Made by a program: the position numbers and the translations under genes
Part shown: piece after piece, positions 2,457-18,804 of the stretch
Position numbering within the stretch: position 1 is the first letter of the stretch
Layout: each line of letters begins with the position of its first letter
The notes under the pieces: model-generated
What the model saw: only the letters and a program-made list of their open reading frames with translations
What the model was told of the DNA's origin: nothing
The model's database searches: none
Source: Prevotella sp.
GTDB taxonomy: Bacteria > Bacteroidota > Bacteroidia > Bacteroidales > Bacteroidaceae
Direction of reading: 5' to 3'
NCBI GenBank assembly: GCA_017428055.1
Contig: JAFRRN010000031.1
Location: 1 to 50,474, forward strand
DNA: 50,474 bases

Positions 2457-2464
2457 CAAAGTTA
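2457..2464 (-). promoter_or_regulatory. Amylase promoter -7 element
   Basis: The minus strand reads TAACTTTG, matching the Bacteroidetes consensus TAnnTTTG. I see no TTTG at the usual 19-21 bp further upstream, which suggests a promoter that depends on an activator. The palindromic operator lies 53 bp upstream. Confidence 0.7.
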
Positions 2465-2480
2465 CATGAAATAAAAGCAA

Positions 2481-2511
2481 AAAGTCCAATTGATTTCCTC
2501 AATTGGACTTT
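2481..2511 (-). terminator. Terminator of the susC-ompA operon
   Basis: A perfect 13-bp stem (AAAGTCCAATTGA and its complement) with a 5-nt loop. On the minus strand it is followed by TTGCTTTTATTT, a U-rich tail. It lies between the ompA stop and the amylase promoter, so it separates the two transcripts. It is A-rich on the other flank and has no plus-strand gene to serve. Confidence 0.75.
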
Positions 2512-2517
2512 GTTGCC

Positions 2518-2533
2518 ATGCAAACGTTTGCAT
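2518..2533. promoter_or_regulatory. LacI-type operator upstream of the amylase
   Basis: ATGCAAACGTTTGCAT is a perfect 16-bp palindrome with the central CG typical of LacI/GalR-family operators. The identical site lies between susC and lacI, and a 15/16 match lies upstream of the glucanotransferase gene. It starts 6 bp beyond the ompA stop codon and is 53 bp from the amylase -7 element. Confidence 0.8.
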
Positions 2534-2538
2534 TTCGG

Positions 2539-3630
2539 TTATTCGCCCACCACAATCACGCAACGGTTGCGATCGTTGTCCGTGAACGGCTGTTCGGTGT
2601 CGCCGTATGACAAGACCTTCATGCGGTCAGCGGCGATGCCTTTCTCCTGGAGAGCCTTGGCAACCTTCTCGGCACGTGCCTTGGCATAGCCTTCATTGAT
2701 CTTGGGATTGCCCGTACCCTTGTCTGCATAGCCCTTGATGATGATGTTCTTGGCAGGATACTTCTTGCACCAAGAGGCAATCTTGTTAAGCGTGGCCTCT
2801 GGGTCGGGGTCGCTGAGGCGGATGTTGTAGAAGAAGGTCTCCTTCAATGGCTCATCCTTCACCACGGCAGCCTTGGGTTTGGGCTCGGGCTTCACCTCGG
2901 GCTTGGGCTCGGGTTTAGGCTCCGGCACGGGTTCAGGCACAGGCTCCTGATAGACGACCGGGGCAGCCTTCTTGGGATGGCCAAACTTAATGGTCGCGCC
3001 AAGGAATGCCGCGAGTTGCCAATCGGGGTCGAAATTGCGCTTGAGGTTAAACACATCGTTCTTGTAATTGGCATCCACCTCGAGGCCGAGGGCGAAGTTC
3101 TTTGACAGGTTGAAATTGAACTGCGTACCGAAACGGCCGTTAAAAGAGCTGTGCTTCGTGCCACAGAGGGCAGGGTTCTCCACAAACTTCGTGGCATTGT
3201 TCTGTGTGTTGAACTCATCGAAGTCCCAACCATAGTTGACACCGAAACCCGCAAGCAGCACCCAGTCGAAGAAGTCGTTGGTGCGGTTGGGGCAGAGGAT
3301 ATTCGACATGTTCATCAACAAGTCCAAGTCGCCTGTCAAGGCATAAAACTTATAGGTATCGGTCAAAGCCCCCTTCACTTGCCATCCTTGCACATGGAGA
3401 CGCGCTCCCACCTTCGAGTTGAAGTACCTACCGGCGGAGAGGGCAACCTGCGGTGTGATGAGCTTGGTGAAGTCATAGTTGGTAAACGTGCCTTGCGCAC
3501 CACCCTGGACGGTGATGAAGTTATAGGGATAGCCATCCTCTACGCTCTGCGCAAGCGCTGCGGTGGACACTCCGAAGAGGAGTGCCACTGCGGCTGCTAT
3601 ATGAATGATTTTTTTCATAACGTGATTCAT
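2539..3630 (-). CDS. OmpA-family outer-membrane protein in the sus operon
   Basis: A 363-residue protein with a signal peptide (cleavage near ALAQ-S at 28), a predicted beta-barrel of about 190 residues, a proline/glutamate-rich hinge (about 223-258, repeated PEPKPEP units) and a C-terminal OmpA-like domain (266-363). That domain has the GYAD and AKARAEKV segments that supply the peptidoglycan-binding Asp and Arg in the family. It is the last gene of the sus operon, starting 14 nt after the susF stop (an alternative start at Met5 gives a 26-nt gap). OmpA-family proteins anchor the outer membrane to peptidoglycan. A specific role in starch use is inferred only from position; canonical sus loci lack such a gene. 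Confidence 0.88.
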   Translation of the reverse strand: MNHVMKKIIHIAAAVALLFGVSTAALAQSVEDGYPYNFITVQGGAQGTFTNYDFTKLITPQVALSAGRYFNSKVGARLHVQGWQVKGALTDTYKFYALTGDLDLLMNMSNILCPNRTNDFFDWVLLAGFGVNYGWDFDEFNTQNNATKFVENPALCGTKHSSFNGRFGTQFNFNLSKNFALGLEVDANYKNDVFNLKRNFDPDWQLAAFLGATIKFGHPKKAAPVVYQEPVPEPVPEPKPEPKPEVKPEPKPKAAVVKDEPLKETFFYNIRLSDPDPEATLNKIASWCKKYPAKNIIIKGYADKGTGNPKINEGYAKARAEKVAKALQEKGIAADRMKVLSYGDTEQPFTDNDRNRCVIVVGE

Positions 3631-3644
3631 TTAAAAGTTTTGAA

Positions 3645-5396
3645 TTACTGTTTGGTGATCACCACACGGTTGTTTCCCGGGTAACTGATGTAGAGTTGGA
3701 ACTTATACGTACCCGCGCTGACATTGAGGTTGGCACCATCGGCTACGAGATTGTTCACATCGCCACCCCAATTGATACCCCAATCATGGTTGGCACGGAA
3801 CTTCAACTCCGTGTCGGCATCAATGGTAGCAGTAGCTTCCCAACATCCGTCGGTGGTATTGTAGGTCATATCGACATCGCCACCCCAGCCATTGAATCCG
3901 CCGATGATACCGATGGTTTCAATCTTCGTGAGGCTATAGGTCATGGCAGACGCATCTAAGTCGATGCGATAGAAGCCTGCGCCTGGGTCGGGGCAGTTGG
4001 GGCCACCCGTTGACTGTAGCGTTCCACCCATGGCATCGCCGCTGACATATTCCAGGTCATCGTCCCAGTTGTCGGCGTTGGGCTTAAACTTGAACTCACC
4101 ATCGAGCCAGTAGAATCCTTGGTATTTGCCGTCGCTATTGGCTCCATACAAGGCATGGGCTGTACCCCATCCGCTCTCGTTCCCTATCTCATAGAAGAAT
4201 TCCGAGAAGTTCAGCGGCGTGATGGTATAGGTGTAGTCCATCATGTTGACTGAGAAGCGATAGAACTTGGCCTGTCCATCCACACAGAAGGAGTGGTCGC
4301 CGTCAAGGTTGTAACGACGGTCGAACGACCCGCTGAGGTCTGTGCTGTTGCCCTTGGTGCCGAAGAGCTTGTTCCAAGTACCCTCTCCCACGGCATCGAT
4401 AGCCTCGTCATCGCCAAAGGCGAACCACATCTCACCGCCCGTGCTGGCGAATACGTATGTGAAGACGGGGTCGTCAAACACATTCTTGTCGCTGTGGGAG
4501 AACTTCTGGTCCTTGGAATTATCCCAGTTGCCCGGCCCACCGATGAGATAATAGTTCTCGGAGATGTTCAACGGCTCAATCTGGTAGCTGTAATCCATCA
4601 TGTTCAAGGTGATCTTGATGAGCTTGTTGCCTGCGGGAACACAGAACGACCCATCGTCGCTGAGGTTGTAACGGCGGTCGAGGTTACCCGTGAGGTCGGT
4701 GTTGCCGTTGCCCTTGGTCGTGCCAAGGAGCTTAGACCAGTCGCCGTCGTTGGTGATGGCATCACAAGCCTCGTCGTCACCGATGGCAAACCACGTGTCG
4801 CCATCTGGCACGGCATTGATGATGATTGTGAACACGGGATCCTCATATACGTCCTTTCCGCTATGCGAGAACTTCAACTCCTTGGAAGCGGCAGAGCCCG
4901 CCCAGTCGAGTGTGGCACCCACCACGTAGTAGTTATTGGAGATCTGCGGAGCCTCGGGGATGGCCTTCACCTGGAACACGGCGGATGTTGCCGTCTTCAC
5001 ACTGGTAACGCCATTGCCCATCCATGCGCTGACCGTGGCATCGATGTCACGCTGCACCGGGCGGCGGCCATAATGCTCGATGACGTAGTTTTGCAAGTCG
5101 GCTGCCGCCATCGTCCCATCTGCGGCAATGTCGAAAGTGGCATCTCCGAGGGTGATGGTGTAAGTTGGAGTGTAAGAGGCGTCCGTCGCCGTCGGTGCTG
5201 TGATGTCGCACACCTTGACACGTTCTTCAGTGACGCTGTTGAAATCAATCACCCCCACCGTAGAGATGCTACCATCGCCAAAGGAAACTATTTCCGGCTG
5301 GTTGACCACCTGTGGTGACACCCAGTCTTTGTAGTCGTCGGTGCAAGCTACCACCGACGCTACAAATGCCATTCCTAATAATATTTTCTTCGTCAT
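3645..5396 (-). CDS. SusF-like multi-domain surface starch-binding lipoprotein
   Basis: A signal peptide ends in a lipobox with Cys18 (VVAC-TDDYKDW), so this is an outer-membrane lipoprotein. After an N-terminal domain come four beta-sandwich-like modules at about 152-276, 278-396, 398-492 and 494-583. Modules 1 and 2 are close copies: both carry KFSHS, WFA-GDDEA, D-RRYNL and NMMDY-Y. Module 4 has the GFNGWGGDV type motif of SusE/SusF starch-binding domains. Such proteins hold starch at the cell surface for SusC/D and the amylase and have no catalysis of their own. Position (fourth gene of susCDEF) and modular length support SusF. The assignment of individual modules to binding is inferred. 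Confidence 0.87.
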   Translation of the reverse strand: MTKKILLGMAFVASVVACTDDYKDWVSPQVVNQPEIVSFGDGSISTVGVIDFNSVTEERVKVCDITAPTATDASYTPTYTITLGDATFDIAADGTMAAADLQNYVIEHYGRRPVQRDIDATVSAWMGNGVTSVKTATSAVFQVKAIPEAPQISNNYYVVGATLDWAGSAASKELKFSHSGKDVYEDPVFTIIINAVPDGDTWFAIGDDEACDAITNDGDWSKLLGTTKGNGNTDLTGNLDRRYNLSDDGSFCVPAGNKLIKITLNMMDYSYQIEPLNISENYYLIGGPGNWDNSKDQKFSHSDKNVFDDPVFTYVFASTGGEMWFAFGDDEAIDAVGEGTWNKLFGTKGNSTDLSGSFDRRYNLDGDHSFCVDGQAKFYRFSVNMMDYTYTITPLNFSEFFYEIGNESGWGTAHALYGANSDGKYQGFYWLDGEFKFKPNADNWDDDLEYVSGDAMGGTLQSTGGPNCPDPGAGFYRIDLDASAMTYSLTKIETIGIIGGFNGWGGDVDMTYNTTDGCWEATATIDADTELKFRANHDWGINWGGDVNNLVADGANLNVSAGTYKFQLYISYPGNNRVVITKQ

Positions 5397-5444
5397 AATA
5401 ATATTCAGTTTATGAGTTTACCTAAAATAACGCATTATCTCTCA

Positions 5445-6677
5445 TTACTGTCTGATGAAACGGATGAATCCCGTGATGTCGTTGAACATGACCATGTAGG
5501 TTCCCTCCTCTTCTATCACGAGGTTATCACCATTGGCGACACCGTAAACATACATGCCTTGGGCATAGTTGACAAATGTTCCACCACGGTTGAAGTCCCA
5601 AGAGTCGGCTTGTTTGACCTTGACTTCGGCACCTGCCTCAAACGATGCGGTGACGTACCAGTCGTGGTTCTCCCAGCCAGTGGAACATGGTGTCATCAAC
5701 ATGTCACCCCAATCATTGAAGCTACCGGCTATGGCCATGCCACTGAACACGGCAGGAGTGCCATCGTACTTCTCCACTTTCAAGGCGGTGGTGCTTCCCT
5801 TGTCTTCAACCTTCGCCAACTCGGCCGTGTTGAGGGTAATCTTATAGACACCCGGCTCCGCCACCTTAATGTCACTTGAGCCACCGTCGTTCTTGAGGAA
5901 TCCGGCGTCGCCCTGGCCTATCTGTGCAGCCCAGTTGTCGTCCAATGCGCCTCGGAGCTTAAAGCCATTACCGGCGAGGTAGCCTATCCATTGTATCTCG
6001 CCCTGTCCGGTCTTCTTGTCGTACTCGGCACCTTCGATGGGTTGCATGGGGATGACACACTTTCCTACATCGCCTCCCCACGAGCCGTCGGCAATATCTG
6101 CGCCGATGAGCCACCAGATCTCCGGGTCTGCGGGTTTCAGTTCCATATAGTAAGGCACCGTGTTGAGCGTTACCACATTTGAGTAGATGGTGCTGTATTC
6201 CTTGAATGAGGCATCGCGGATGGCCGACTTCACACGGAACGACACCTGTTGGAGGGCAGGGACGGTGGTCTCTGTCCATCCGCAGAGTTGTAACAGGGAA
6301 CGGTTGAGCGTCTCTGTATTCACCTCTACGCTCTTTCCACTACTATATGTTTCATCGAGTGTAAAGAAGTCTGCGCCTGTGTTATCCTCCGCATTGGCAT
6401 CAAAAGCCTGGGTGAAAGCACCCGTGGGTGACACCTCCACCCAATAGGTGGGCACCACTGGGGTGTTGAAATCATTATAGGGCGTTGGTTGCGACCATGT
6501 AAGCGTCACGGTTGACGACTTCTCTAAGTCCACATTTCCATTCACGGCAATCTCGTTGAGTACAAACTGCGTGGGCTGTGCCAGTGTGGGATTCGACTCG
6601 TTGTCATCCTTACAAGAGGTGAAGAGCGATAACCCCGCTGCTGCCAAGAGTAATGTTGATTTGAATATTGTCTTCAT
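5445..6677 (-). CDS. SusE-like outer-membrane starch-binding lipoprotein
   Basis: Starting at the internal Met (MKTIFKSTLLL), the signal peptide ends in a lipobox with Cys22 (LFTSC-KDDNE). The frame also allows a start at 6710, only 12 nt after susD, but that adds an 11-residue polar extension before a textbook signal. The first half has the SusE N-terminal Ig-like domain (TVTLTWSQP...PTYWVEVS). The second half has two starch-binding-like modules, with WWLIGADIADGSWGG and AIAGSFNDWGDM. It lies between susD and susF in the same operon and should help retain maltooligosaccharides at the surface. Sequence similarity in this family is weak, so the call relies strongly on the operon order. Confidence 0.85.
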   Translation of the reverse strand: MKTIFKSTLLLAAAGLSLFTSCKDDNESNPTLAQPTQFVLNEIAVNGNVDLEKSSTVTLTWSQPTPYNDFNTPVVPTYWVEVSPTGAFTQAFDANAEDNTGADFFTLDETYSSGKSVEVNTETLNRSLLQLCGWTETTVPALQQVSFRVKSAIRDASFKEYSTIYSNVVTLNTVPYYMELKPADPEIWWLIGADIADGSWGGDVGKCVIPMQPIEGAEYDKKTGQGEIQWIGYLAGNGFKLRGALDDNWAAQIGQGDAGFLKNDGGSSDIKVAEPGVYKITLNTAELAKVEDKGSTTALKVEKYDGTPAVFSGMAIAGSFNDWGDMLMTPCSTGWENHDWYVTASFEAGAEVKVKQADSWDFNRGGTFVNYAQGMYVYGVANGDNLVIEEEGTYMVMFNDITGFIRFIRQ

Positions 6678-6722
6678 AATCGTATCGTCATTATTAGTAT
6701 TACTTTTCACATTATACCTTTA

Positions 6723-8330
6723 TCAATATCCTTCATTCTGCTTGAGGTTTGGATTGGCATTCAAGTCCTCGGCAGGGATGGCGAAGAGGTTGCGATAAGC
6801 GGGTAAGCTTGCACCTTTTTCAGAGCCACCTTTCCACTCCCACAAGTACTGTCCGCTCTTCTCACCGGCGAAATAGCCATAGCGGATGAGGTCTGTGCGG
6901 CGGAATCCCTCATAATACAGTTCGCGTGAACGCTCATTGAGGATCTCATCGGTAGTATAGCCACCACGCTTAGCGGCATGGGCACGCTCACGCAAGGCAT
7001 TGACATAGCCTGTACCCTCGTCGCTGGTGTAGCCATCATGCAGGCGGGCATCAGCCTCGGCTGCTATCAGGTAAGCCTCGGCAGAACGCATGAGGAAGAA
7101 GTCGGCATCGATGAATTGAGAGTTGTGAGGGCTGCCTCCCGCTGCGTAGGTGTTGCGGAATTTGCCCACGGAGTAGCCTGACGTGAACTCCGTTGGTGTG
7201 GAAACCACCAATTCACGCTCTATGCCATAGAACAAGGCGCGGTCGTCGCCGGCAACGGCTGCCATGTCACTGATGTTCACCTGTGGCGCATCGCCATTGG
7301 GGAAGAATTTGGCGACAAACTGCGAACGAGCCCTATTGCCCGACCAAATCTCACTCGTGCCATAGTTCTTGTCCACGTCCATGTCACTCTTCCACGTGGA
7401 GGCCATGAGGAACAGGGTGGTACACCACGCGGTGGTCTTCACACCGTCCTGGAGCAATGGCAAGATGGCCTCCTGCGAAGCACCGTTGCTGCCGTTGTCA
7501 CCCATGAAGAGCATCTGGTAAGCACTCCATCCGTTCATGCCCGTAGTCCATAGTTTGTGAGGACCATTGATGACTTTTTCTGCATACTCCTTGGCATCAG
7601 TCCAACGAGCCGTCCCTGTATAGACCTCGGCATTGAGGTACAAACGAGCCAACAAGAGGTTGGCGGCATCCTGGTCTGCACGGCCATAGCCATTGTCAGT
7701 ATCCTTGCGGGCGGCGGGAGCAAGCATCAAGTCTTTCACTGCCAGCAACTCACTCTCTATCCACTTGAAGAGGTCGGCACGTTGGATTTGCTCTGGGGGC
7801 GTTGACATCAAGGCCGTCGCAAATGGCACGTTGCCGAAGCAGTCCATCAGATGATAATAGTACAAGGCACGGAGGAAACGCACCTCTGCCTCGCGTGTGG
7901 CGTCAATGCCGGCGCAAACCTCCAAGTAGTGGTTGCAATAGGCGATGCCGGTATATAAGCGATAATAGAATCCCTGCAACATCGGATGGGAAGATCCCCA
8001 CTGGTTGAAATTGAATTCGGGGATGCCGGGGTCGCCCCAGGCACAGATAGCCTCGTCCGTAGTCAGCTCATTGGCATTCCATAACTGGCGTACGAAACCT
8101 GCCGTACCGCCGTCCAAGCCGTCAATGTCGCAGTCGCCGTTGGCACCCGTCTGGCCTTGTATCGCCATGTTGGCGTAGCATTTGGCATAGAGAGCAGGCT
8201 CGTCGGCTACCATTGTCTTACTGGGATCAATAGGTGTCACATCCAGGTCGCCCGTGCAAGAACTCAGTCCTGCGGCAGCCAATACCACGACTGCAGCGGG
8301 AATCATATTTTTGAAATATCTTAAGTTCAT
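6723..8330 (-). CDS. susD: SusD/RagB-family starch-binding outer-membrane lipoprotein
   Basis: A 535-residue protein with a lipobox at Cys25 (GLSSC-TGDLDV) and the usual SusD start with LDVTPIDPSK. The alpha-helical TPR scaffold is visible (AEVRFLRALYYYHLMDCFGNVPF near 145-165 and NLLLARLYLNAEVY). The C-terminal RagB signature is also present (MRSAEAYLIAAEADARL, then ELYYEGFRRTDLIRYG). SusD caps the SusC transporter from outside and delivers maltooligosaccharides to it. The gene starts 32 nt after susC and is 12-45 nt before susE, in one operon. Family membership is clear. The starch substrate is taken from the surrounding amylase, pullulanase and GH97 genes. Confidence 0.95.
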   Translation of the reverse strand: MNLRYFKNMIPAAVVVLAAAGLSSCTGDLDVTPIDPSKTMVADEPALYAKCYANMAIQGQTGANGDCDIDGLDGGTAGFVRQLWNANELTTDEAICAWGDPGIPEFNFNQWGSSHPMLQGFYYRLYTGIAYCNHYLEVCAGIDATREAEVRFLRALYYYHLMDCFGNVPFATALMSTPPEQIQRADLFKWIESELLAVKDLMLAPAARKDTDNGYGRADQDAANLLLARLYLNAEVYTGTARWTDAKEYAEKVINGPHKLWTTGMNGWSAYQMLFMGDNGSNGASQEAILPLLQDGVKTTAWCTTLFLMASTWKSDMDVDKNYGTSEIWSGNRARSQFVAKFFPNGDAPQVNISDMAAVAGDDRALFYGIERELVVSTPTEFTSGYSVGKFRNTYAAGGSPHNSQFIDADFFLMRSAEAYLIAAEADARLHDGYTSDEGTGYVNALRERAHAAKRGGYTTDEILNERSRELYYEGFRRTDLIRYGYFAGEKSGQYLWEWKGGSEKGASLPAYRNLFAIPAEDLNANPNLKQNEGY

Positions 8331-8362
8331 AATCGTATTGTTTAATCTGTTATACTACTACA

Positions 8363-11300
8363 TTAGAAATTGAGGTTCAAACCCACCTGGAAGGTGAGGG
8401 GACGGGGGTACATGTTGTTGTCAATGCCTCCAAACACCTCGGGGTCGATGCCCTTGTACTTGGTGATGGTAAACACATTGGTAGCCGAAGCATAGATACG
8501 ACCGTCAAGCCCCTTGTAGTTTCCACCTTTAAACAGGCTCGTGAAAGAATAACCCAACGTGATGTTGTCGCATTTCAAGAATGAGGCATTGTGCACGAAA
8601 TAGTCACTCAATGGGTGGTCGTAGGTTGACCAGTTGCGCTCAACAGCGCCGGGAATGACATTTTGCAGATAGCCAAACGACGAGTCAAAGCGCTTCGAGA
8701 CGTTGCTATAGCCTGCCTCCTTGTCCCAATAGACATAGTTGTCGAAGCTGGCACGAAGCCCAAAGCCGAAGTCCCAGTTTTTATATTGCAAGCGAGAGCT
8801 CAAACCGGCGGTGTAGGGTGCATCGGGACTCTTGTAGAAATAGCGGTCGGAGGTGTTGATGATGCCATCGCCATTGCGGTCAACATAGACACCTTCGAGG
8901 GGAAGCCCCTTCTCGTCATACACCTGCTGGTACACATAGAATGACCTCTTGGGATAGCCTACCGAATGCGCTTGGCAATACTGGCCTGTACCAGAGGAGA
9001 TACCGCCCGTATAGACAAGCGACGACTCGCCCGTGAGTTCGGTAATCTCGTTCTTGTTGTAAGTGAAGTTGGCGGTCACCTCCCACTGCCAATTGGTGGT
9101 CTGGATGGGTCGGACGGTCAACGAAGCCTCGATACCGCGATTCTCCATCGAGCCGATGTTCTTGCGCACTTGGTTACGGAAGTTGGAACCTGCCGAAACG
9201 GAAGCGTCATTGATCAGGTCGGTTGTCTTGCGGTAATAGTAGTCCACACTACCACTGACACGGTTGCGGAAGAGGCTGAAGTCGAGACCGATGTTCGACG
9301 TGGTGGTGGTTTCCCACTTCAATTCAGAGTTGTAAGCATCGGGGCGGTACAGCAAACCTTCGTCGTTGACACCCACAATAGGATAACGTCCATCGACATT
9401 GGTCGTGTTCACGTTATAGGTGGCAAAGTAGTTATAATCGCCAATGCCGTCTTGCTGGCCCGTCTTACCCCAGCCGAGGCGCAGCTTCAGCTCATCCATC
9501 CACTTGGCATTCTTCAAGAAAGCCTCCTCGCTGATCTTCCAACCCAAAGCCACGGAGGGGAATGTAGCCCAATGGTTCTTGAATCGGGAAGAGCCGTCGC
9601 GACGCACGGTGGCGGTCAACATGTATCGGTCAAAGGCTATATAGTTGGCACGACCGAAGAAACTGACGAGGTAGTTCTCTGACTTCCAGATGCTGGTCTT
9701 GCCGTTATAGAGTTTGCCGGCGGCGGGTTCGGTGGTGCCATCATCGTGTGTGATGACCTGGTTGGTGGTGGTGGGATAGAGCCCGGCATAGAACGAGTCG
9801 CCCCAATACTTGGTATGGCTCCACTCGTAACCACCCATGATGTCAAAGTGTTGCGTCTTGAGGAAGTCCTTATAGTACTGTGCGTAAGCCGAATAGGTCA
9901 GGTTGTATTTCTTCTCATACGTCTTCCCGCTGTTGCCATAGTAGAAGTTGGAGGGTCCCCAAGGGGCATAGTCGGTCTTCTGCGTACCGTTAGCCCAGTC
10001 GCCACTGGCGTTCATGTGGATGCGCAAGTCCTCGAATCCATGCACTTGGTAGTCCATCTCCACGTTGCCCATGTAGTCAAAGGAGTTGGCACGGTCGTTC
10101 TTCTCATACAGGCGAGAGAGCGGGTTGGCGACGGTATTGCGGTTCCACATCGTGTCATAGTTGGGGTCTTGCAACGACGACCCCTTGTCCATCCATTGCC
10201 AGTAGCCATGGTAGTTGTTGAAGTCTGCCGAACTGCTGTAGATGGGCTTGGTGGGATCCATGCGGGTAGCGTCGGCTATGGCATCCTCATTGGCATAGCG
10301 GTTGTGCGAATACATGAACTTCCCGTTGATGTTAAACTTCAAGTGGTCTTTGAAGAATGAGGGGTTCAACGTCAAGCTGGTCGTGACACGCTGGAAATTG
10401 GAGGTTTTCAAGATACCATCCTGGTCGGTGTAGCCCACACTCAGGCGATACGGCATGTTCTTCAGGCCGCCCTGCACGGTCACATTGTGGTCGGAACTGA
10501 CTGCCCCGTGGAATATCGCATCCTGCCAGTCGGTAGCCATGGGCGTGGAGGCACCGGGGACAAAGAGGTTGTTCTCCTCCACCAAGTTCCCACTGCCATC
10601 GCGTTGGTACGACCAATTGTCAAGCAACTGGTCAGCCATCGACCCTGTGCCATAATAGTTCTTGATGAACGAGCGATATTCATCGGCATTCAACACGTCG
10701 AGCGTCTTGCGCTTGATCGAGTAAGACACATTGCCATTGTAGCTCACCTTGGGAGCCATGCCCTTGCGCCCTTTCTTCGTGGTGATGATGATGACACCGT
10801 TAGAACCGCGACTACCGTAGATGGCCGTTGCAGAGGCATCTTTCAGCACCGTGAAGCTCTCGATGTCGTTAGGGTTGACCATCGTCAAGGGGTTGGCGGC
10901 ACCCTTGATGCCTTGATTGTCCATGGCGAGACCGTCAATGACGATCAAAGGGTCCTCGGAGGCGTTGAGCGACGAGCCGCCACGGATACGGATGGTGGCA
11001 CCTCCACCGGGCGTACCGCCGCCGTTCGTCACGTTCACACCGGCAATCTTTCCCTGCATCATGTCCTGTGCGTTGGTCACGAGGCCATGGTTCTTCTCAT
11101 CGGGCTTGATGGCTGTCACCGAGCCAGTCAAGTCATTCTTCTTGGCGACACCATAACCGATGACCACCACCTCGTTCAATGAGTTCTCCACATCGTCCTC
11201 AAGGGTGATGACCACATTCGCTGCTGCCGACACCTCCTGCGTGGCATAACCGATGTATGACACGGAGATGGTCGCACCAGGGTTGGCTCTCAATGTGAAG

Positions 11301-11497
11301 TTACCGTCGATGTCACTCACCACACCACCATCCTGTCCTGCGACGCGGATTGTGGCACCGATGATGGGCTCGCCGGTGTTGTCCTTCACATGGCCATTGA
11401 CAGTGATTTGCTGCGCAAATGCACTGACCGAAAGAATCAGCCCACACACCAATGTGAGCATCCTCTGAAGGCTTGTAAATTTTACCTGCTTCATCAT
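8363..11497 (-). CDS. susC: SusC/RagA-family TonB-dependent maltooligosaccharide transporter
   Basis: A 1044-residue outer-membrane transporter. The order is signal peptide (ending SAFAQ-Q near 29), carboxypeptidase-regulatory-like domain (about 32-100, with GEPIIGATI and DGNFTL), TonB-box region (NEVVVIGYG, 109-117), plug domain (IRIRGGSSLNASEDPLIVID and ATAIYGSRGSNGVIIITTKK-type motifs) and a 22-strand barrel ending in an aromatic-terminated strand (FQVGLNLNF). It imports large maltooligosaccharides with SusD at the cost of TonB energy. It is the first gene of the operon, with a leader of about 110 nt downstream of a -7 element and a LacI-type operator. The tandem ATG gives a start uncertainty of one codon. 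Confidence 0.96.
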   Translation of the reverse strand: MMKQVKFTSLQRMLTLVCGLILSVSAFAQQITVNGHVKDNTGEPIIGATIRVAGQDGGVVSDIDGNFTLRANPGATISVSYIGYATQEVSAAANVVITLEDDVENSLNEVVVIGYGVAKKNDLTGSVTAIKPDEKNHGLVTNAQDMMQGKIAGVNVTNGGGTPGGGATIRIRGGSSLNASEDPLIVIDGLAMDNQGIKGAANPLTMVNPNDIESFTVLKDASATAIYGSRGSNGVIIITTKKGRKGMAPKVSYNGNVSYSIKRKTLDVLNADEYRSFIKNYYGTGSMADQLLDNWSYQRDGSGNLVEENNLFVPGASTPMATDWQDAIFHGAVSSDHNVTVQGGLKNMPYRLSVGYTDQDGILKTSNFQRVTTSLTLNPSFFKDHLKFNINGKFMYSHNRYANEDAIADATRMDPTKPIYSSSADFNNYHGYWQWMDKGSSLQDPNYDTMWNRNTVANPLSRLYEKNDRANSFDYMGNVEMDYQVHGFEDLRIHMNASGDWANGTQKTDYAPWGPSNFYYGNSGKTYEKKYNLTYSAYAQYYKDFLKTQHFDIMGGYEWSHTKYWGDSFYAGLYPTTTNQVITHDDGTTEPAAGKLYNGKTSIWKSENYLVSFFGRANYIAFDRYMLTATVRRDGSSRFKNHWATFPSVALGWKISEEAFLKNAKWMDELKLRLGWGKTGQQDGIGDYNYFATYNVNTTNVDGRYPIVGVNDEGLLYRPDAYNSELKWETTTTSNIGLDFSLFRNRVSGSVDYYYRKTTDLINDASVSAGSNFRNQVRKNIGSMENRGIEASLTVRPIQTTNWQWEVTANFTYNKNEITELTGESSLVYTGGISSGTGQYCQAHSVGYPKRSFYVYQQVYDEKGLPLEGVYVDRNGDGIINTSDRYFYKSPDAPYTAGLSSRLQYKNWDFGFGLRASFDNYVYWDKEAGYSNVSKRFDSSFGYLQNVIPGAVERNWSTYDHPLSDYFVHNASFLKCDNITLGYSFTSLFKGGNYKGLDGRIYASATNVFTITKYKGIDPEVFGGIDNNMYPRPLTFQVGLNLNF

Positions 11498-11611: not shown

Positions 11612-11619
11612 CAAAAGTA
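11612..11619 (-). promoter_or_regulatory. susC promoter -7 element
   Basis: The minus strand reads TACTTTTG, matching TAnnTTTG. No TTTG is seen at the expected -33 distance. The upstream edge is 53 bp from the operator at 11673-11688. Confidence 0.65.
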
Positions 11620-11672
11620 AATTTTATCTAATAATCATGTACTTTTTTAAATATAAAATCGTTCTTTTATGT

Positions 11673-11688
11673 ATGCAAACGTTTGCAT
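11673..11688. promoter_or_regulatory. LacI-type operator shared by susC and lacI
   Basis: A perfect palindrome ATGCAAACGTTTGCAT in the divergent region between susC and the LacI-family regulator. It lies 53 bp from the susC -7 element and 54 bp from the lacI -7 element, so it is centred between the two promoters. This suggests joint control and autoregulation. Confidence 0.85.
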
Positions 11689-11742: not shown

Positions 11743-11750
11743 TATATTTG
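11743..11750 (+). promoter_or_regulatory. lacI-family gene promoter -7 element
   Basis: TATATTTG matches TAnnTTTG and is 51 bp before the regulator's ATG. No -33 TTTG is apparent. The shared operator is 54 bp upstream. Confidence 0.6.
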
Positions 11751-11801
11751 CATACGTGAACAAACGGCAACAAAACGTCAACCATCAAACAGAAAGAGAC
11801 T

Positions 11802-12815
11802 ATGCCCATCACCATGAAAGATATCGCGAGAGAGTTAGGCGTCTCCATCGCCACGGTCTCCCGAGCCTTGAAAGACAGCCCTCGCATCAGTGCCGAGACA
11901 CGCGATGCCATCAAGAAGTATGCGCGCGAGCATGAGTTTGTACCCAATGCCATAGCTGAGAGCCTACGCAACAGCCGCATCCGCCCGCAGAAAATCATCG
12001 GTGTCATCGTGCCCCAGTTCACGCATTTCTATTTCTCGTCCATCCTCAGTGGCATTGAGGAGGAGGCATCATCCCACGGCTATAGCCTCTTAGTGGCACA
12101 GAGCGACGAGCGGTATGACCGAGAGGTGCGCATCTGCAAGTCGTTTTTCGAGAACAAGGTTTGTGGCATCATCGTCTCGCAAGCCAAGGACACCCACAAG
12201 TACGACCATTTCCAATGGCTATTAGACAACCATGTGCCGCTGGTCTTCTATGACCGCATCTGCACAGGAGTGGACGCCAGCCGAGTGGTGGTGGACGACT
12301 ATACTGGGGCATATAATGCCGTGAAGCATCTCATCGACACGGGATGCCGCCGCATTGCCTACTATGGGTCGCCCATGTCATTAGAAATTTCCAAGAACAG
12401 GTACAACGGCTACCGCGACGCCATGCTGAAGAACCGGCTCACCCCCGATGACCGTTTCATGCGTTTCTGCGACAACAGGGCCGACGCGGAGGCCATCACC
12501 GCCGAGATCATGATGCAGGAGGAGATTCCCGATGCCTTCTTCGCCGTCAACGATGACACCGCCATCGGCATCCTCTATACCGTCAAGCGGATGGGATACC
12601 GTGTCCCCGACGACATCAGTATCTGCGGGTTCACCAACGACTACCGTGCCATCGCCTGCGACCCCATGCTCACTACCGTGGAACAACGCGGCGTGGCGGT
12701 AGGCGAGGAGGCATCCAATATCCTCATTGGCCAGGTGGAAGGCACCATCCCCATCAACAAAGTGGAGAAACGGATTGTACGCACCCGCCTCATCGTCCGT
12801 GGCACCACCCGATAA
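11802..12815 (+). CDS. LacI-family transcriptional regulator of starch use
   Basis: A 337-residue regulator with an N-terminal helix-turn-helix (about 5-25, MKDIARELGVSIATVSRAL), a hinge helix (AIAESLRNSRI, about 50-60) and a periplasmic-binding-like effector domain (GVIVPQFTHFYFSSILSGIE onward, ending near VEKRIVRTRLIVR). The recognition helix and hinge are of the type that binds palindromes with a central CG, and three such palindromes lie in this window. It is divergent to susC, shares that operator and is followed by a sugar transporter. Classical Bacteroides sus loci use the unrelated SusR instead. Operators lying 53-54 bp upstream of -7 elements fit activation better than simple blocking. 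The effector is unknown, probably a maltodextrin. Confidence 0.93.
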   Translation: MPITMKDIARELGVSIATVSRALKDSPRISAETRDAIKKYAREHEFVPNAIAESLRNSRIRPQKIIGVIVPQFTHFYFSSILSGIEEEASSHGYSLLVAQSDERYDREVRICKSFFENKVCGIIVSQAKDTHKYDHFQWLLDNHVPLVFYDRICTGVDASRVVVDDYTGAYNAVKHLIDTGCRRIAYYGSPMSLEISKNRYNGYRDAMLKNRLTPDDRFMRFCDNRADAEAITAEIMMQEEIPDAFFAVNDDTAIGILYTVKRMGYRVPDDISICGFTNDYRAIACDPMLTTVEQRGVAVGEEASNILIGQVEGTIPINKVEKRIVRTRLIVRGTTR

Positions 12816-12906: not shown

Positions 12907-14217
12907 ATGAAACACAAACCTGATTTATCATTCTGGAAGCTCTGGAACTTGAGCTTTGGTTTCTTCGGCGTACAAATCGCCTACGCCCTGCAAAGTGGCA
13001 ACATCTCGCGCATCTTCCGCACACTCGGCGCAGACCCACACTCCCTCAGTTTCTTCTGGATATTGCCCCCATTGATGGGCATCCTCGTCCAACCCGTCGT
13101 CGGAACATTGTCTGACAAGACTTGGACACGCTGGGGACGGCGTATACCTTATTTATTTATAGGGGCGGCAGTGGCGGTCGCCGTGATGTGCCTGTTGCCC
13201 AACGCCGGCTCCCTTGGCCTGGGCATCTCCGCCGTCATGGTCTTCGGCCTCGTCATGCTGATGCTTCTCGACACCAGCATCAACATGGCGATGCAACCTT
13301 TCAAGATGCTTGTGGGCGACATGGTGAACGAGGAGCAGAAGGCAAAGGCCTATTCCATCCAGTCGTTCCTGTGCAACGCGGGCAGCGTGGTGGGCTTCCT
13401 CTTCCCCTACATCTTCACTGCCGTGGGCATAGCCAACGTTGCAGCCCCCGGCATCGTGCCGCCATCCGTCGTCTGGTCGTTCTATATCGGTGCCGCCATC
13501 CTCATCCTGTGTGTCATTTATACTACTCTCAAAGTCAAGGAATGGCCACCAAAAGAGTATGAAGAGTATAATGGCAAGGCATCGGATGCCACCACCGCCG
13601 CAGAGAAAGAGAGCGGCAACTGGATCACGTTGCTGAAAAACGCACCCTCGACGTTCTGGAAAGTGGGCCTCGTGCAATTCTTCTGCTGGTCTGCCCTGCT
13701 CTATATGTGGACGTATGTGGTGGATGCCGTCGCCGAGACGGTATGGAACTCCACCGACTCCGCGTCGGCAGAATACCAGACGGCGGGCAACTGGACGGGC
13801 GTGCTCTATGCCATCCAGGCGATGGGAAGTGTGGTCTGGGCAACCATCCTGCCACGTTTCAAGAACACCAAGATGGCATACGCCGTCAGCCTGTTCCTCG
13901 GTGGCGTCGGCTTTGCGCTCATCCCATTCGTCCCTAACCAATATGGACAGATTATCCCCTTCCTCCTGATTGGCTGCGCTTGGGCTGCCATGCTCGCCAT
14001 GCCTTTCACCTTCGTCACCAACGCCTTGCAAGGCTACGGCCACATGGGAGCCTACCTGGGCTTGTTCAACGGCACCATCTGCCTACCGCAAATCATCGCC
14101 GCCATCTGTGGAGGCAGCATCCTCAGCATGGTGGGCGGCCATCCGTCTACGATGATGGTCGTGTCGGGTGTCCTCCTTGTCATCGGTTCCCTCTGCGTCT
14201 CGTTCATCAAGAAATGA
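12907..14217 (+). CDS. MFS sugar transporter, maltose/maltooligosaccharide type
   Basis: A 436-residue inner-membrane protein with about 12 predicted transmembrane segments. The loop after TM2 reads SDKTWTRWGRRIPY, the MFS motif-A variant found in the sucrose/maltose (SLC45-like, GPH-like) branch. The long central loop (about 214-240) splits the protein into two six-helix halves. It likely imports maltose or short maltodextrins produced in the periplasm. The gene starts 91 nt after the lacI-family gene in the same direction and overlaps the next gene by an ATGA, so co-transcription is likely. Substrate is inferred from the neighbours; the family alone would also permit sucrose. Confidence 0.9.
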   Translation: MKHKPDLSFWKLWNLSFGFFGVQIAYALQSGNISRIFRTLGADPHSLSFFWILPPLMGILVQPVVGTLSDKTWTRWGRRIPYLFIGAAVAVAVMCLLPNAGSLGLGISAVMVFGLVMLMLLDTSINMAMQPFKMLVGDMVNEEQKAKAYSIQSFLCNAGSVVGFLFPYIFTAVGIANVAAPGIVPPSVVWSFYIGAAILILCVIYTTLKVKEWPPKEYEEYNGKASDATTAAEKESGNWITLLKNAPSTFWKVGLVQFFCWSALLYMWTYVVDAVAETVWNSTDSASAEYQTAGNWTGVLYAIQAMGSVVWATILPRFKNTKMAYAVSLFLGGVGFALIPFVPNQYGQIIPFLLIGCAWAAMLAMPFTFVTNALQGYGHMGAYLGLFNGTICLPQIIAAICGGSILSMVGGHPSTMMVVSGVLLVIGSLCVSFIKK

Positions 14218-14780: not shown

Positions 14781-14814
14781 GCGAGGTTATCCCATCGTGG
14801 TAAAAGGATTATCA

Positions 14815-14849
14815 GTATCATATAATCTGTTTATATGTATCATATAATC
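14815..14849. repeat. 13-bp direct repeat, 22 bp apart
   Basis: GTATCATATAATC occurs at 14815-14827 and again at 14837-14849. The 22-bp period is about two helical turns. It lies in the 226-bp gap upstream of the ECF sigma gene and may be a regulator binding site. Confidence 0.45.
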
Positions 14850-15006
14850 CCATTATCCCATACATATAATAATGGTGGAAGATAGCCTTCGGGGCAACAT
14901 ATTCACCATCGACAACAAGAAAAAGACAAAAAAAATCCGTTTTCCATGTAGCATTTCCCAACCCCTTTGCGACTTATGTACAGAAAAGAATCCAAATAAA
15001 GACGAT

Positions 15007-15492
15007 ATGAACGCATTAGAGGCAGAATTTACACGCACCGTCCGCGAGCACCGCAGCACCATCTACACCGTGTGCTATATGTTCTCCAACGACCAAGACG
15101 AGGTGGCAGACCTCTTCCAGGAGGTGCTCATCAACCTATGGAAGAGCTTTGAGACGTTTGAGGGACGCAGCAATGTGCGCTCGTGGATCTACCGGGTGTC
15201 GCTGAACGTCTGCATCTCCATCGACCGTAAGAAGAAACGCCACAAGACCGTACCGCTCACCATGGACATCAACCCTTACGAGGAGACGGAGACCAACAGC
15301 AACTCCCGACAGATGGACATGCTGCGCCGGCGCATCGCCAAGTTGCCGGAGTTCGACCGTGCCATCATCCTCCTCTGGCTAGAAAACATGAGTTACGAGG
15401 AAATCGGGCTGGTATGCGGCATCACTCCCAAGAACGTCTCCGTGCGCCTCTATCGCATCAAGGAACAGCTCAAGCAAATGTCTAACGATTAA
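15007..15492 (+). CDS. ECF-type RNA polymerase sigma factor
   Basis: A 161-residue sigma-70 family protein of the ECF group. Region 2 (DQDEVADLFQEVLINLWKSF, with RSWIYRVSLNVC for promoter melting) and region 4 (SYEEIGLVCGITPKNVSVRLYRIKEQL) are both present, joined by a short linker. The start MNALEAEF is chosen because it begins the conserved domain; the frame is open further upstream but that stretch is lysine-rich and lacks family features. It is first in an operon with a four-helix membrane protein (16-nt gap) and a TraB/GumN-like protein. The signal it responds to is not visible. The membrane neighbour is a candidate anti-sigma factor. Confidence 0.92.
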   Translation: MNALEAEFTRTVREHRSTIYTVCYMFSNDQDEVADLFQEVLINLWKSFETFEGRSNVRSWIYRVSLNVCISIDRKKKRHKTVPLTMDINPYEETETNSNSRQMDMLRRRIAKLPEFDRAIILLWLENMSYEEIGLVCGITPKNVSVRLYRIKEQLKQMSND

Positions 15493-15508
15493 AAATACAG
15501 TCACAAAG

Positions 15509-16105
15509 ATGGAAACAAATACGGAAAACATGTCATTGGAAATGCTGCGCGACCAAGTGGCAGCATTCAAGGAAAGGCTCGACAAGCAGGAAATCATCAA
15601 CGACCGCCTCATCCGCCAGGCGATGAAGTCGCACGTGTCGTGGGTCAAGAACATGAACACCTGGGTCAGCGTGGTGGGTCTGCTCTTTTTACCGCTCCTC
15701 ATCTTCGTCTTGAACAGCATTCACGCATCGTGGTTGAATATCGCTTTCATCACTGTCATGATGATTGGCGAAATCATTTTCAACTTCTATAACGTCCACA
15801 CCATCAACGACAAGCTGATGTCGGAGGGCGACATCGTCACCGTCAGGCACAAGCTCCTGGCCTACAAGAGGCGCGAAATGATACAGACGATGATAGAAAT
15901 ACCGCTCATCATCCTCTGGCTCGTTTGGCTCATCCTCGACGCTTACTACGGCGGAAGCAGCCCATCCACCGCAGGAGGAGCCGTCAGCTTGGGCATCGGA
16001 GGTCTCATCGGCTTGGGCATCGGCGCATACCTCTTCTTCCGCGAGATGCGCTCGCTCAACCGTGCCATCCACGTTGGCGACGATTTTTCTAACGAACAAC
16101 CATAA
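15509..16105 (+). CDS. Four-helix membrane protein, possible anti-sigma partner
   Basis: A 198-residue protein that I cannot place in a known family. It starts with a cytoplasmic-looking amphipathic, charged segment of about 45 residues (MLRDQVAAFKERLDKQEIINDRLIRQ), possibly a coiled coil. Four predicted transmembrane helices follow at about 52-71, 75-94, 127-146 and 157-177, the last rich in glycine. It begins 16 nt after the ECF sigma gene and ends just before the TraB-like gene, so the three are likely one operon. A protein with this layout, directly downstream of an ECF sigma gene, is often its membrane-bound regulator. That is inference from position, as no zinc anti-sigma motif is seen. 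Confidence 0.8.
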   Translation: METNTENMSLEMLRDQVAAFKERLDKQEIINDRLIRQAMKSHVSWVKNMNTWVSVVGLLFLPLLIFVLNSIHASWLNIAFITVMMIGEIIFNFYNVHTINDKLMSEGDIVTVRHKLLAYKRREMIQTMIEIPLIILWLVWLILDAYYGGSSPSTAGGAVSLGIGGLIGLGIGAYLFFREMRSLNRAIHVGDDFSNEQP

Positions 16106-16115
16106 CAAACCCATT

Positions 16116-17021
16116 ATGAAAATAATCACAACCCTCATGCTCCTCTTGGCGACATGCCTCATCGGAGCGCAAGCACAACTATTGTACAAGGTCTCGGGCA
16201 ATGGCCTCGCCGCCCCCTCTTACGTCATCGGCACCTACCATGTGGCACCTGCCTCGTTCGTGGACTCCATCCCCGGCATCCAACAAGCCATGGAAGAAAT
16301 CGGACAAGTGTATGGAGAACTCAACATGGAAGAAGAAATGAAACCTGAGAATCTCCAAAAGATGCAAGCCGCCATGATGCTCCCAGAAGGCACGACGCTC
16401 GCCACCATCCTCACCGAGGACGAGATGAGCCGCCTCAATGCCCGCCTCCGCGAGGTGATGGGCGTGGATATGACCAACCCGATGGTCGCCCAACAGCTCG
16501 GCAGGCTATCGCCCATCACTCTTTCCACACAACTCACCATGCTCTCTTATATCAAGAAGACCCCGGGATTCAACCCCTCTGACCTCTTCGACAGCCACTT
16601 CCAAAAGGTTGCCAAGCAACAGGGGAAAGGCGTAGGGGGGCTGGAAAGCCTTGACTTACAAATAAAATTGCTCTATCAAGGACAATCCATCGAGCGGCAG
16701 AAGGAGCTGTTAATGTGCCAGGTAGACAACTGGGACTTCATGGAACAGATGACCGACAACGTAGCAAAGGCATTCTTCGCGCAAGACCTCAATGCCATCA
16801 AGGAAGCAGTGGACATGAAAATGGGCAACAGTTGCGACTCCACGCCCGAAGAGGAGGAGGCGATGATCGACGACCGCAACGCCAACTGGATCCAACAGAT
16901 GCCCGCCATCATGCAAGCCAAGCCCACCCTCTTCGCCGTGGGGGCAGCCCACCTGCCGGGCGAAAAGGGCGTGTTGCACCTCCTCCGGGCTGCGGGCTAC
17001 ACCGTGGAAGCCGTCAAGTAA
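16116..17021 (+). CDS. TraB/GumN-family exported protein
   Basis: A 301-residue protein with a signal peptide (MKIITTLMLLLATCLIGAQA-Q) and the TraB/GumN layout. It has the N-terminal GTYHVAP motif, a central acidic GELNMEEE, RNANWIQQM near residue 265 and a C-terminal VGAAHLPGEKGVLHLL. Members have a TIKI-like fold with conserved His/Glu residues and are suspected metal-dependent proteases, but bacterial roles are poorly defined. The start at 16116 is chosen because it opens the signal peptide; the open frame further upstream runs into the preceding gene. A strong terminator lies 60 nt downstream, closing the ECF operon. Confidence 0.85.
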   Translation: MKIITTLMLLLATCLIGAQAQLLYKVSGNGLAAPSYVIGTYHVAPASFVDSIPGIQQAMEEIGQVYGELNMEEEMKPENLQKMQAAMMLPEGTTLATILTEDEMSRLNARLREVMGVDMTNPMVAQQLGRLSPITLSTQLTMLSYIKKTPGFNPSDLFDSHFQKVAKQQGKGVGGLESLDLQIKLLYQGQSIERQKELLMCQVDNWDFMEQMTDNVAKAFFAQDLNAIKEAVDMKMGNSCDSTPEEEEAMIDDRNANWIQQMPAIMQAKPTLFAVGAAHLPGEKGVLHLLRAAGYTVEAVK

Positions 17022-17080
17022 TCCCGCCCCGACGATGCGGCTATGGCCAACGCCTATACGGGATTATTATTTCCAAGACC

Positions 17081-17124
17081 GCAAAAAATCGGCACCAAGG
17101 CTTGCCTTGGTGCCGATTTTTTGC
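17081..17124. terminator. Strong hairpin terminator closing the ECF operon
   Basis: The arms 17081-17101 and 17104-17124 are a perfect 21-bp inverted repeat centred on a short loop. The stem core is TCGGCACCAAGGC with A6 on the left and T6 on the right, so it can work in both directions. It separates the TraB-like gene from the BspA-like gene. Confidence 0.85.
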
Positions 17125-17158
17125 TATATTAGCGCCATCAACCATACCTTTTATAATA

Positions 17159-18727
17159 ATGAAACGACATCTTACACGGAAATCATGGTGCCTTTGCGCC
17201 CTCCTACTCACGGCTTTAACCACCCACGCACAACAATCTGCCATGCCTTATGGGAAAGGGTCGATGTGGTTCATGATAGACCACGGCGAGGCTTCTTCCA
17301 TGAAAAGCATCAAGATAGACAGCCCTTTGAACGGCGACGACATCTATTGGCTGCGCAAGTTGGCGGGTGCTAAATACGGCAAGGATGCCCACGAGGCAGA
17401 CTTGGGAGCGTTGGAAGAGATCGACTTGGCTGACGCAAAAATAGCGGCGGGTGGCGAGTCGTACTATTTCCAAGGGCTCTTTCCACCCTATTCGAGCCGC
17501 ATTGCCCCCCAATCTGCCAAGCTCTACACCCAAACGGACACCATCGGAAAGTACATGTTCATGGGCTGTCACCGGCTGCGCAACGTGACATTGCCATCGA
17601 CCTTGAAATATGTCAACCCATACGCTTTCACCCATTGCGACAACCTGCAGACCATCCGCTGCACCGCCACCACCCCACCCGCCTGTTCCCAACTGGCCTT
17701 TGCGGACGATGAAACCAGCGAAAAGCCAATAGGAATCATCTACGACCAATGCCTGCTCATCGTGCCTTCGGGATGCAAAGAGGCATATCAAGCGGCGGAG
17801 GGATGGAAATCGTTTGCCAACATCCAAGAGCAAGGCACGGGCGTATATGGCGATGAATTTACCGCCGATGGGTACACCTACCGCATCAACAACCCCCAAG
17901 AGGTCACGCTCATCGGCAGTCCGGAGAGTTTGGCAGGGGCAGTCACCCTCCCCTCCCAAGTGGAACATAGCGGTCGGTTTTATGCTGTGACGGCGATAGG
18001 TGCCAAGGCTTTCTATCTCCGTAGGAACATCACCGCCATCCAAATGCCCCAGTCCGTCCGTTCCATCGGGCAGTCGGCGTTTTACGGTTGCCGCTCCCTC
18101 AACCAAGTATCATTCCCTGAAGAACTTGACAACATGGGAGCTTTCGCCTTCCAGAACTGCACCAAGCTCTCCCAAGTGACCCTGCCGAAGGGGCTTCAAG
18201 TGTTGCCTTTCTATGCGTTTATGGAATGTCCGCTCGAGAAAATCACCTTCCCCGAGGGCTTGGAACGTATTGGCGACTATGGCTTGACGCCCTTCATGGG
18301 CGCATCCATCGAGTTGCCCGCCTCCCTCCAATTCATCGGTTATTTTTGCTTCAACACCACAACATTGAAGGAAGTGATATGCCATGCCGCCACTCCCATT
18401 CCCCTATTGGGAGACAACGGTGACCACCAGAGGATGGAAGGGTATGAGTTTTGGCACCAGCCATCATACCTCGCCACGGTCAAACTGTACGTTCCCGATG
18501 AAAGCATGGATGCCTATCGGCAGGCCAACGTATGGCAAGACTTCGACATCCACCCCCTTTCGGAGTATGTTGCTAACGCCATCGCGCCCGCTACCCATCA
18601 TGAAACGGCAACGAATGGGGCAACCGATGCCGTCTTTACGATTGAGGGACATGCCCTGACCGCCCCACAACGGGGCGTGATGATCCTCAAAAGAGGAGAG
18701 GAAACGCACAAGGTGGCGGTGAAATGA
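17159..18727 (+). CDS. BspA-type leucine-rich-repeat surface protein
   Basis: A 522-residue secreted protein. Signal peptide MKRHLTRKSWCLCALLLTAL (cut near HAQ) is followed by LRR_5-type repeats in two blocks, with units such as ITAIQMPQSVRSIGQSAFYG, LNQVSFPEELDNMGAFAFQN and LSQVTLPKGLQVLPFYAFME. These repeats form an extended solenoid used for adhesion or binding in this family. The C-terminus (VFTIEGHALTAPQRGVMILK) resembles the sorting tails of secreted Prevotella proteins. The frame is open far upstream, but the signal peptide fixes the start at 17159. It follows the ECF-operon terminator. Its stop codon touches the operator of the next operon. The ligand is unknown. Confidence 0.85.
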   Translation: MKRHLTRKSWCLCALLLTALTTHAQQSAMPYGKGSMWFMIDHGEASSMKSIKIDSPLNGDDIYWLRKLAGAKYGKDAHEADLGALEEIDLADAKIAAGGESYYFQGLFPPYSSRIAPQSAKLYTQTDTIGKYMFMGCHRLRNVTLPSTLKYVNPYAFTHCDNLQTIRCTATTPPACSQLAFADDETSEKPIGIIYDQCLLIVPSGCKEAYQAAEGWKSFANIQEQGTGVYGDEFTADGYTYRINNPQEVTLIGSPESLAGAVTLPSQVEHSGRFYAVTAIGAKAFYLRRNITAIQMPQSVRSIGQSAFYGCRSLNQVSFPEELDNMGAFAFQNCTKLSQVTLPKGLQVLPFYAFMECPLEKITFPEGLERIGDYGLTPFMGASIELPASLQFIGYFCFNTTTLKEVICHAATPIPLLGDNGDHQRMEGYEFWHQPSYLATVKLYVPDESMDAYRQANVWQDFDIHPLSEYVANAIAPATHHETATNGATDAVFTIEGHALTAPQRGVMILKRGEETHKVAVK

Positions 18728-18742
18728 TGCAAACGTTTGCAC
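18727..18742. promoter_or_regulatory. LacI-type operator upstream of the glucanotransferase operon
   Basis: ATGCAAACGTTTGCAC matches the other two operators at 15 of 16 positions. Its first base is the last base of the upstream stop codon. It ends 54 bp before the -7 element of the GH77 promoter, the same geometry as at the other sites. Confidence 0.8.
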
Positions 18743-18796
18743 ATTTTTAAGCCCTATTTGTCCTTTGCTTGTCTGTTAAGGTTTGACTTTTCTTGG

Positions 18797-18804
18797 TACT
18801 TTTG
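18797..18804 (+). promoter_or_regulatory. GH77 operon promoter -7 element
   Basis: TACTTTTG matches TAnnTTTG, 27 bp before the ATG at 18832. It excludes the TTG at 18793, which lies upstream of any plausible transcript start, and makes the ATG at 18805 almost leaderless. No -33 TTTG stands at normal spacing. Confidence 0.7.

Follow-up and report, generated by a model that had tools for sequence, protein, structure and literature searches.

Organization of the starch locus

We analysed a 50,474-nucleotide stretch of DNA from Prevotella sp. (contig JAFRRN010000031.1, positions 1 to 50,474; hereafter, the window) that contains a starch-utilization locus in which a palindromic operator lies close to four promoters. 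The minus strand carries the genes for an alpha-amylase (377–2422, with a CBM26 match slightly under cutoff), an OmpA-family protein (2539–3630), SusF-like (3645–5396) and SusE-like (5445–6710) proteins, SusD (6723–8330) and SusC (8363–11497); the ompA gene is the last of the sus gene run. Divergent from these, the plus strand encodes a 337-amino-acid LacI-family regulator (11802–12815) with LacI helix-turn-helix and Peripla_BP_3 domains and, 3′ of it, a major facilitator superfamily (MFS) sugar transporter (12907–14217). Because the gap between them is only 91 bp, lacI and the transporter gene probably form one operon. Farther along the plus strand lie the genes for a glycoside hydrolase family 77 (GH77) 4-alpha-glucanotransferase with a CBM20 domain (18832–21522), a GH97 enzyme that begins 4 bp past the GH77 end (21526–23673), and a pullulanase-type enzyme (23774–25813). 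The starts of the amylase and GH77 genes are our own readings; for the amylase we preferred 2422 to 2452 because the latter would coincide with the expected +1.

Operator 1 is a perfect 16-bp palindrome, ATGCAAACGTTTGCAT, at 2518–2533, between the stop codon of the OmpA gene and the amylase promoter. The gap, measured from the operator end to TAnnTTTG, is 53 bp to the amylase −7 element (TAACTTTG, 2457–2464, minus strand). Operator 2 (11673–11688) matches ATGCAAACGTTTGCAT exactly and is common to the divergent susC and lacI promoters; it lies 53 bp from the susC −7 element (TACTTTTG, 11612–11619, minus strand) and 54 bp from that of lacI (TATATTTG, 11743–11750, plus strand). Operator 3 (18727–18742), a 15/16 match that overlaps, by one base, the end of the stop codon of a leucine-rich-repeat (LRR) protein gene, is 54 bp from the GH77 −7 element (TACTTTTG, 18797–18804, plus strand). 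These positions, with 0, 0 and 1 mismatch, and all four gaps agree exactly with a preliminary description of this DNA, which had also reported that the promoters lack a clear TTTG at −33; indeed, all four are free of TTTG starts from −27 to −18, counted from the TA. One qualification is that a TTG starts at −25 in the amylase promoter, displaced by ~2 bp from where it is usually found (background peak at −23/−22); it falls within a strong terminator-like hairpin (2481–2511, minus strand). This hairpin lies inside the 53-bp spacer, so operator 1 is probably part of the transcript of the upstream sus operon.

Chance could not account for the arrangement. The window had three matches to ATGCAAACGTTTGCAT at up to 3 mismatches, whereas shuffled windows averaged 0.33 and reached three matches in 0 of 100 trials. 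Of the 35 matches in the 4.2 Mb genome, only the three window operators had under 3 mismatches; the remaining 32 all had 3 and were treated as background (a reversed control pattern gave 45). The comparative spacing data below likewise led us to reject a chance origin.

Conservation of the operator-to-promoter distance

Spacing was compared in a genus sample of 150 genomes, including that of the window, in 128 of which the LacI sequence found a match at E up to 1e-60. With an orthologue defined, by our own cut, as a best E below 1e-100, 120 genomes had one (61–100% identity; partial genes in three), and the 30 genomes counted as lacking it comprised 8 with a paralogue only (E 1e-60 to 1e-68) and 22 without any match. 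Besides the window genome, 119 genomes had the orthologue, and about 20 kb around lacI was taken from 100 of them. Together with the window and 32 named loci this gave 133 loci; removal of 9 duplicates and 3 loci with short upstream sequence left 121 distinct lacI upstream regions. Named loci encoding a relative of the window LacI belonged in 32 of 33 cases to Prevotella, Prevotellaceae, Segatella, Hoylesella, Xylanibacter or unplaced Bacteroidales, and the remaining one to another phylum (30% identity). An operator of the form GCAANNNNTTGC with a TAnnTTTG box at 51–56 bp was present on at least one side in 115 of the 121 regions, and on both sides in 108.

Distances were counted at directed sites, that is, with the palindrome read both ways. 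The loci were those picked for the LacI orthologue plus L179–L208, for which the selection criterion was the pattern, a wide gap being permitted; exact-context duplicates were dropped. The 396 directed core sites had 293 TAnnTTTG boxes within ~150 bp, and 267 of these boxes were at 52–55 bp (2 at 52, 119 at 53, 129 at 54 and 17 at 55 bp), with no other distance occurring more than 4 times. One helical turn off, 3 boxes were found nearer (two at 43 and one at 44 bp) and 0 farther (63–65 bp). Helical phase alone was therefore rejected as the constraint, since distances one turn off are hardly used.

The 267 sites at 52–55 bp led to lacI (105), susC (104), GH77 (30), amylase (20), GH97 (2), pullulanase (1) and 5 other or unassigned genes. 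The 129 directed sites without a box at this distance included 77 without a downstream gene (mostly the outward-facing side of an operator), 20 upstream of GH77 and 6 upstream of amylase. At most of the boxless GH77 sites the expected position was occupied by TAnnTTTA or a comparable variant, and when variant boxes were allowed the counts were 47 for GH77 and 24 for amylase. The standard deviation of the operator-to-box distance was 0.5–0.7 bp per class; that of the distance from box to ATG (the first ATG opening an open reading frame (ORF) of at least 90 amino acids, not a proven start) was 13–38 bp, with values from 8 to 230 bp. Two GH77 upstream regions carried paired operator cores, 10 bp apart in L115 (63 and 53 bp from the box) and 12 bp apart in L154 (53 and 41 bp).

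Plain inheritance of one sequence did not explain the constant spacing. Median spacer identities between species were 0.45 (susC), 0.36 (lacI), 0.36 (GH77) and 0.30 (amylase), compared with 0.32, 0.28, 0.28 and 0.26 after shuffling. Moreover, where divergent promoters had no common operator, each had its own at 53 or 54 bp (L070, L072, L221, L223 and L314). In L314 the two genes are lacI and susC, ~4.9 kb apart; the left-hand gene of L072 and the partner genes of L221 and L223 were left unchecked. That is, because the spacers have diverged (amylase to near random, susC less so) while their length was kept, and because split operators keep the distance, we rejected inheritance as the explanation. 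In other genera of the family (LacI identity 50–72%), an operator with a box at 52–56 bp was found in 15 of 20 loci. The preliminary description had named variable spacing in orthologous loci as an outcome that would count against it; what we found is a spacing near-invariant in the genus and present in most other-genus loci. We concluded that the arrangement is real, widespread and unusually strict.

The regulator and its relatives

The regulator gene and the operator occur together. For this comparison the pattern was the operator plus a box, with a gap of 41–71 bp from the 12-mer core, and all genome counts are among the matches listed. In the genus, the pattern was present in 110 of the 120 genomes with a LacI orthologue, versus 5 of the 30 without, and a reversed control pattern had 0 matches across the 150 genomes. 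In a family sample of 151 genomes, it was present in 26 of 28 genomes with the orthologue versus 7 of 123 without; here the control pattern gave single matches in 3 genomes. The 30 genus genomes without an orthologue still had GH77 in 23 cases, with an operator in 3 of the 26 upstream regions examined; these three genomes, which are among the 5 exceptions, may be incomplete assemblies. Thus a palindrome with a central CG co-occurs with the lacI gene across genomes, and binding by this LacI is predicted. One genome without a LacI orthologue (G027) contained two operator-like cores (C3:12492–12565 and C61:122701–122774), each 52 bp from TAnnTTTG, perhaps belonging to another LacI-type regulator with the same geometry.

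Membership of the LacI/GalR family was supported by PF00356 and PF13377, both over cutoff. Named NCBIfam models for LacI-family proteins (CcpA, MalI, CytR, RbsR and others) matched in 19 cases, with 0 at cutoff (CytR scored 194 of 436 and CcpA 152 of 442), and the solved structures that scored best by sequence were CcpA chains. The 337-amino-acid protein has 26 residues past the stretch aligned to E. coli LacI (360 amino acids), and by length and alignment there appears to be no room for the tetramerization tail of E. coli LacI.

A LacI paralogue (37–39% identical) was compared in 20 loci (L263–L282) drawn from the matches listed. In 13 of the 20, a ACGTAAACGTTTGCGA-like operator lay 16–17 bp from the paralogue's own TAnnTTTG box, over the −33 region, and in 11 of these 13 it was also 43–44 bp from a divergent box, which is one helical turn less than 53–54 bp. 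No palindrome was recognised upstream of the paralogue in the other 7 loci. The difference in placement indicates that family members use clearly different positions. Upstream of more distant LacI homologues of the class (33–44% identity), few CG-centred palindromes were recognised, none with a box at 52–55 bp and one at 56 bp (L262).

Core promoter composition

We compared 289 regulon promoters (TAnnTT[TC][GA] allowed) with a background of 128 TAnnTTTG[CT] boxes upstream of ORFs in the fetched loci, all at least 130 bp from any GCAANNNNTTGC. A TTG at the −33 position (start −24 to −21 from the TA) was present in 11 of 289 regulon promoters versus 51 of 128 background promoters (p about 6e-20, the sequences not being independent). 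By class, it was found in 7 of 105 lacI, 2 of 104 susC, 1 of 47 GH77, 0 of 24 amylase and 1 of 9 other regulon promoters. A full TTTG at −27 to −18 occurred in 5 of 289 regulon and 35 of 128 background promoters.

GH77 allowed the comparison within one gene. Operator-less GH77 promoters had the −33 TTG in 7 of 20 cases versus 3 of 48 with the operator (p = 0.005), with 37 loci lacking a usable box and 6 short or duplicate loci left out. The LacI orthologue was absent from the genomes of 12 of the 20 operator-less promoters, 4 of which had TTG; the remaining 8, from orthologue-carrying genomes, included 3 with TTG. The contrast fits the −33 element being given up at promoters where an activator is present.

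In place of the −33 TTTG, all four main target classes showed enrichment of A-C-A (−21 to −19) and of G (−16); ACA starting at −22 to −20 was found in 106 of 289 regulon versus 9 of 128 background promoters. This element may be an activator-dependent form of the −33 element or the site of a second factor. It often reads GTACAACG or GAACAACG, and in the window it is seen at 11635–11642 on the minus strand (susC). Every class was also enriched in A/T a few bases beyond the operator: at −49 to −47, G+C was 7–16% versus 31–37% in the background. At −39 and −38, A/T was almost fixed in the lacI and susC promoters, with GH77 and amylase close to background.

Proposed mechanism and alternatives

In the available portion of a study of F. 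psychrophilum, the TAnnTTTG box is placed at −12 to −5 (PMC9723704); the centre of the operator then falls between −73.5 (gap 53) and −75.5 (gap 55). In the part consulted of a B. thetaiotaomicron study, the box is centred on −7 (PMC7366714), which would bring the operator 1.5 bp nearer.

We propose that the LacI-family protein is dedicated to maltose/maltodextrin regulation and that a dimer of it recognises the palindrome RYGCAAWCGWTTGCRY. From a site centred at about −72 to −75 relative to the expected start, it would activate the housekeeping TAnnTTTG promoters that drive susCDEF-ompA, lacI-MFS, amylase and GH77-GH97-pullulanase, four transcription units in all. Because these promoters mostly lack a −33 TTTG, they would need help. 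The near-constant distance suggests a direct, class-I-like contact with the polymerase, most simply through the alpha C-terminal domain seated on the A/T-rich DNA just beyond the operator. The identical geometry at the lacI promoter predicts positive autoregulation. As judged from sequence comparison, direct-contact activation from about −73 by this maltose/starch regulator is strongly favoured.

Class I activation by CRP takes place from −61.5, −71.5 and so on. A class I arrangement has a fixed site upstream of the core promoter, and here 267 of 293 boxes are at 52–55 bp; its target promoters are weak, and here the −33 TTG is absent from 278 of 289 promoters versus 77 of 128, a count of TTG rather than of promoter strength. 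Like CRP, the present system has its site at a set distance upstream, leaving space alongside for the alpha C-terminal domain; it differs in using essentially one distance (52–55 bp to the box) rather than a series spaced by a helical turn, another protein family and a Bacteroidota housekeeping promoter. A classical LacI-family repressor has its operator over the core promoter or the start; here the expected start is ~72–75 bp downstream of the operator centre. Since the site is upstream of the core promoter and near the −71.5 position of CRP, a blocking role is improbable. The preliminary description had argued for activation, not blocking, from constant spacing and weak promoters. Activation is indeed the better supported of the two, because the spacing is near-invariant and the weak-promoter argument is now statistical, although we infer its direction from sequence.

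As GalR reportedly does at gal P1, a LacI protein bound at about −73 could inhibit by touching RNA polymerase, which would be restrained until maltose came; in that case the fixed distance would serve the inhibition. Repression is what most characterised LacI-family proteins do, and a fixed distance fits any direct contact with the polymerase. However, a repressed promoter would not need to lose its −33 element, yet all four main target classes show the loss, and the paralogue demonstrates that a position over the core promoter is available and used in the genus. We consider such a contact repressor unlikely.

Several observations weigh against activation from a fixed site. A bound LacI-family protein could also act by inhibitory contact, as reported for GalR at gal P1. 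The paralogue operator also keeps constant distances (16–17 bp in 13 of 13), so a fixed distance alone is no proof of activation. Six of the 121 lacI upstream regions were exceptions (5 without such an operator and 1 with an operator but no box there), 5 of 20 other-genus loci did not have the spacing, and 5 of the 30 genus genomes lacking the orthologue kept the pattern among the matches listed. The −33 deficit is less sharp in the wider window of −27 to −18, where TTG occurs in 37 of 289 regulon versus 62 of 128 background promoters. Lastly, the sequences are related, and the counts are not independent.

Activation might instead come from another factor, such as a CRP-like protein of the BT4338 type, in a larger complex that LacI merely gates. 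The A-C-A...G enrichment at the −33 position in all four main target classes could be its site, and BT4338 affects maltose use in B. thetaiotaomicron according to the passages available (PMC5061871). Position profiles revealed no additional site that was strongly conserved in every class, though no dedicated search was made. This explanation is quite improbable, more so than contact repression.

Least probable of all, and scarcely credible, is repression by a DNA loop or roadblock between this operator and a second site at the promoter: the TTTGCA at the −7 box does resemble an operator half-site, but a half-site needs CG before TTT, the following CA is absent from several GH77 boxes, one operator per promoter is the rule among the sites listed (exceptions L115 and L154), and the protein seems by length and alignment to lack a LacI-type tetramerization tail. 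The half-operator itself was rejected from the base profile, in which G at box position 4 has a frequency of 0.00 (rounded) in 223 promoters.

Relation to known systems

In B. thetaiotaomicron, sus is activated in response to maltose by SusR, a membrane protein whose predicted sites are long direct repeats, and the Bacteroides LacI regulators tabulated in the same source serve uronate pathways (PMC3878776, available part). As with SusR, the system described here would regulate starch (sus) operons and, on our reading, activate them; it differs from the portrayal of SusR there in having LacI-family domains and one palindrome at about −73. The preliminary description had called this a different control logic. 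A LacI-type regulator in SusR's place is not wholly new: in the passages available of PMC11633381, B. fragilis and B. uniformis are noted for sus loci with predicted LacI-type regulators and an MFS transporter but no SusR. Those loci have GH65 alongside, and the passages give annotation only, with no operator, geometry or mechanism. Theirs is possibly the same regulator as ours.

A survey of LacI-family regulons describes the Firmicutes MalR as a maltose repressor (PMC4052901, part consulted). The B. thetaiotaomicron MalR was dropped as a candidate for this LacI, since the excerpts of PMC5061871 identify it as BT4338, a CRP-like protein.

CcpA, a LacI-family protein, reportedly activates ackA from an upstream palindrome, and activation here would be of that kind. 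The window LacI differs in scoring 152 against the ccpA model cutoff of 442, and the sites we found are at starch genes and its own gene.

Taken across the family, the data point, with somewhat better than even confidence, to a single-distance class-I system in which a LacI-family protein acts on the Bacteroidota housekeeping polymerase on promoters with their own −33 signature (A-C-A...G), switches on its own gene, and stands where SusR stands in B. thetaiotaomicron in most Prevotella sampled (SusR was not searched for). Open-licence literature, covered by titles and abstract starts with subscription papers outside its scope, contained no LacI-type starch-gene activator or such geometry in Prevotella among the matches listed. 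A literature search for mapped transcription starts in Prevotella yielded none. S. copri DSM18205 grows on maltose and not on starch, according to the part available of PMC11784079.

Prevotella and the genera split off from it are common carbohydrate degraders of the rumen, mouth and gut, and control of their starch genes was not described in the portions of the papers examined. A regulator confined to one distance would offer a testable model of activator contact with the unusual Bacteroidota polymerase, which uses −33/−7 boxes rather than −35/−10. It also provides a sequence rule for regulon members (palindrome, 52–55 bp, TAnnTTTG) and possibly a maltose-responsive promoter module for gut commensals.

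Neighbouring genes

Two further genes lie between the lacI-MFS pair and GH77. The first (14872–15492) encodes a sigma-70-family factor with only regions 2 and 4, resembling the extracytoplasmic function type. The second (16715–18727) encodes a BspA-type LRR protein.

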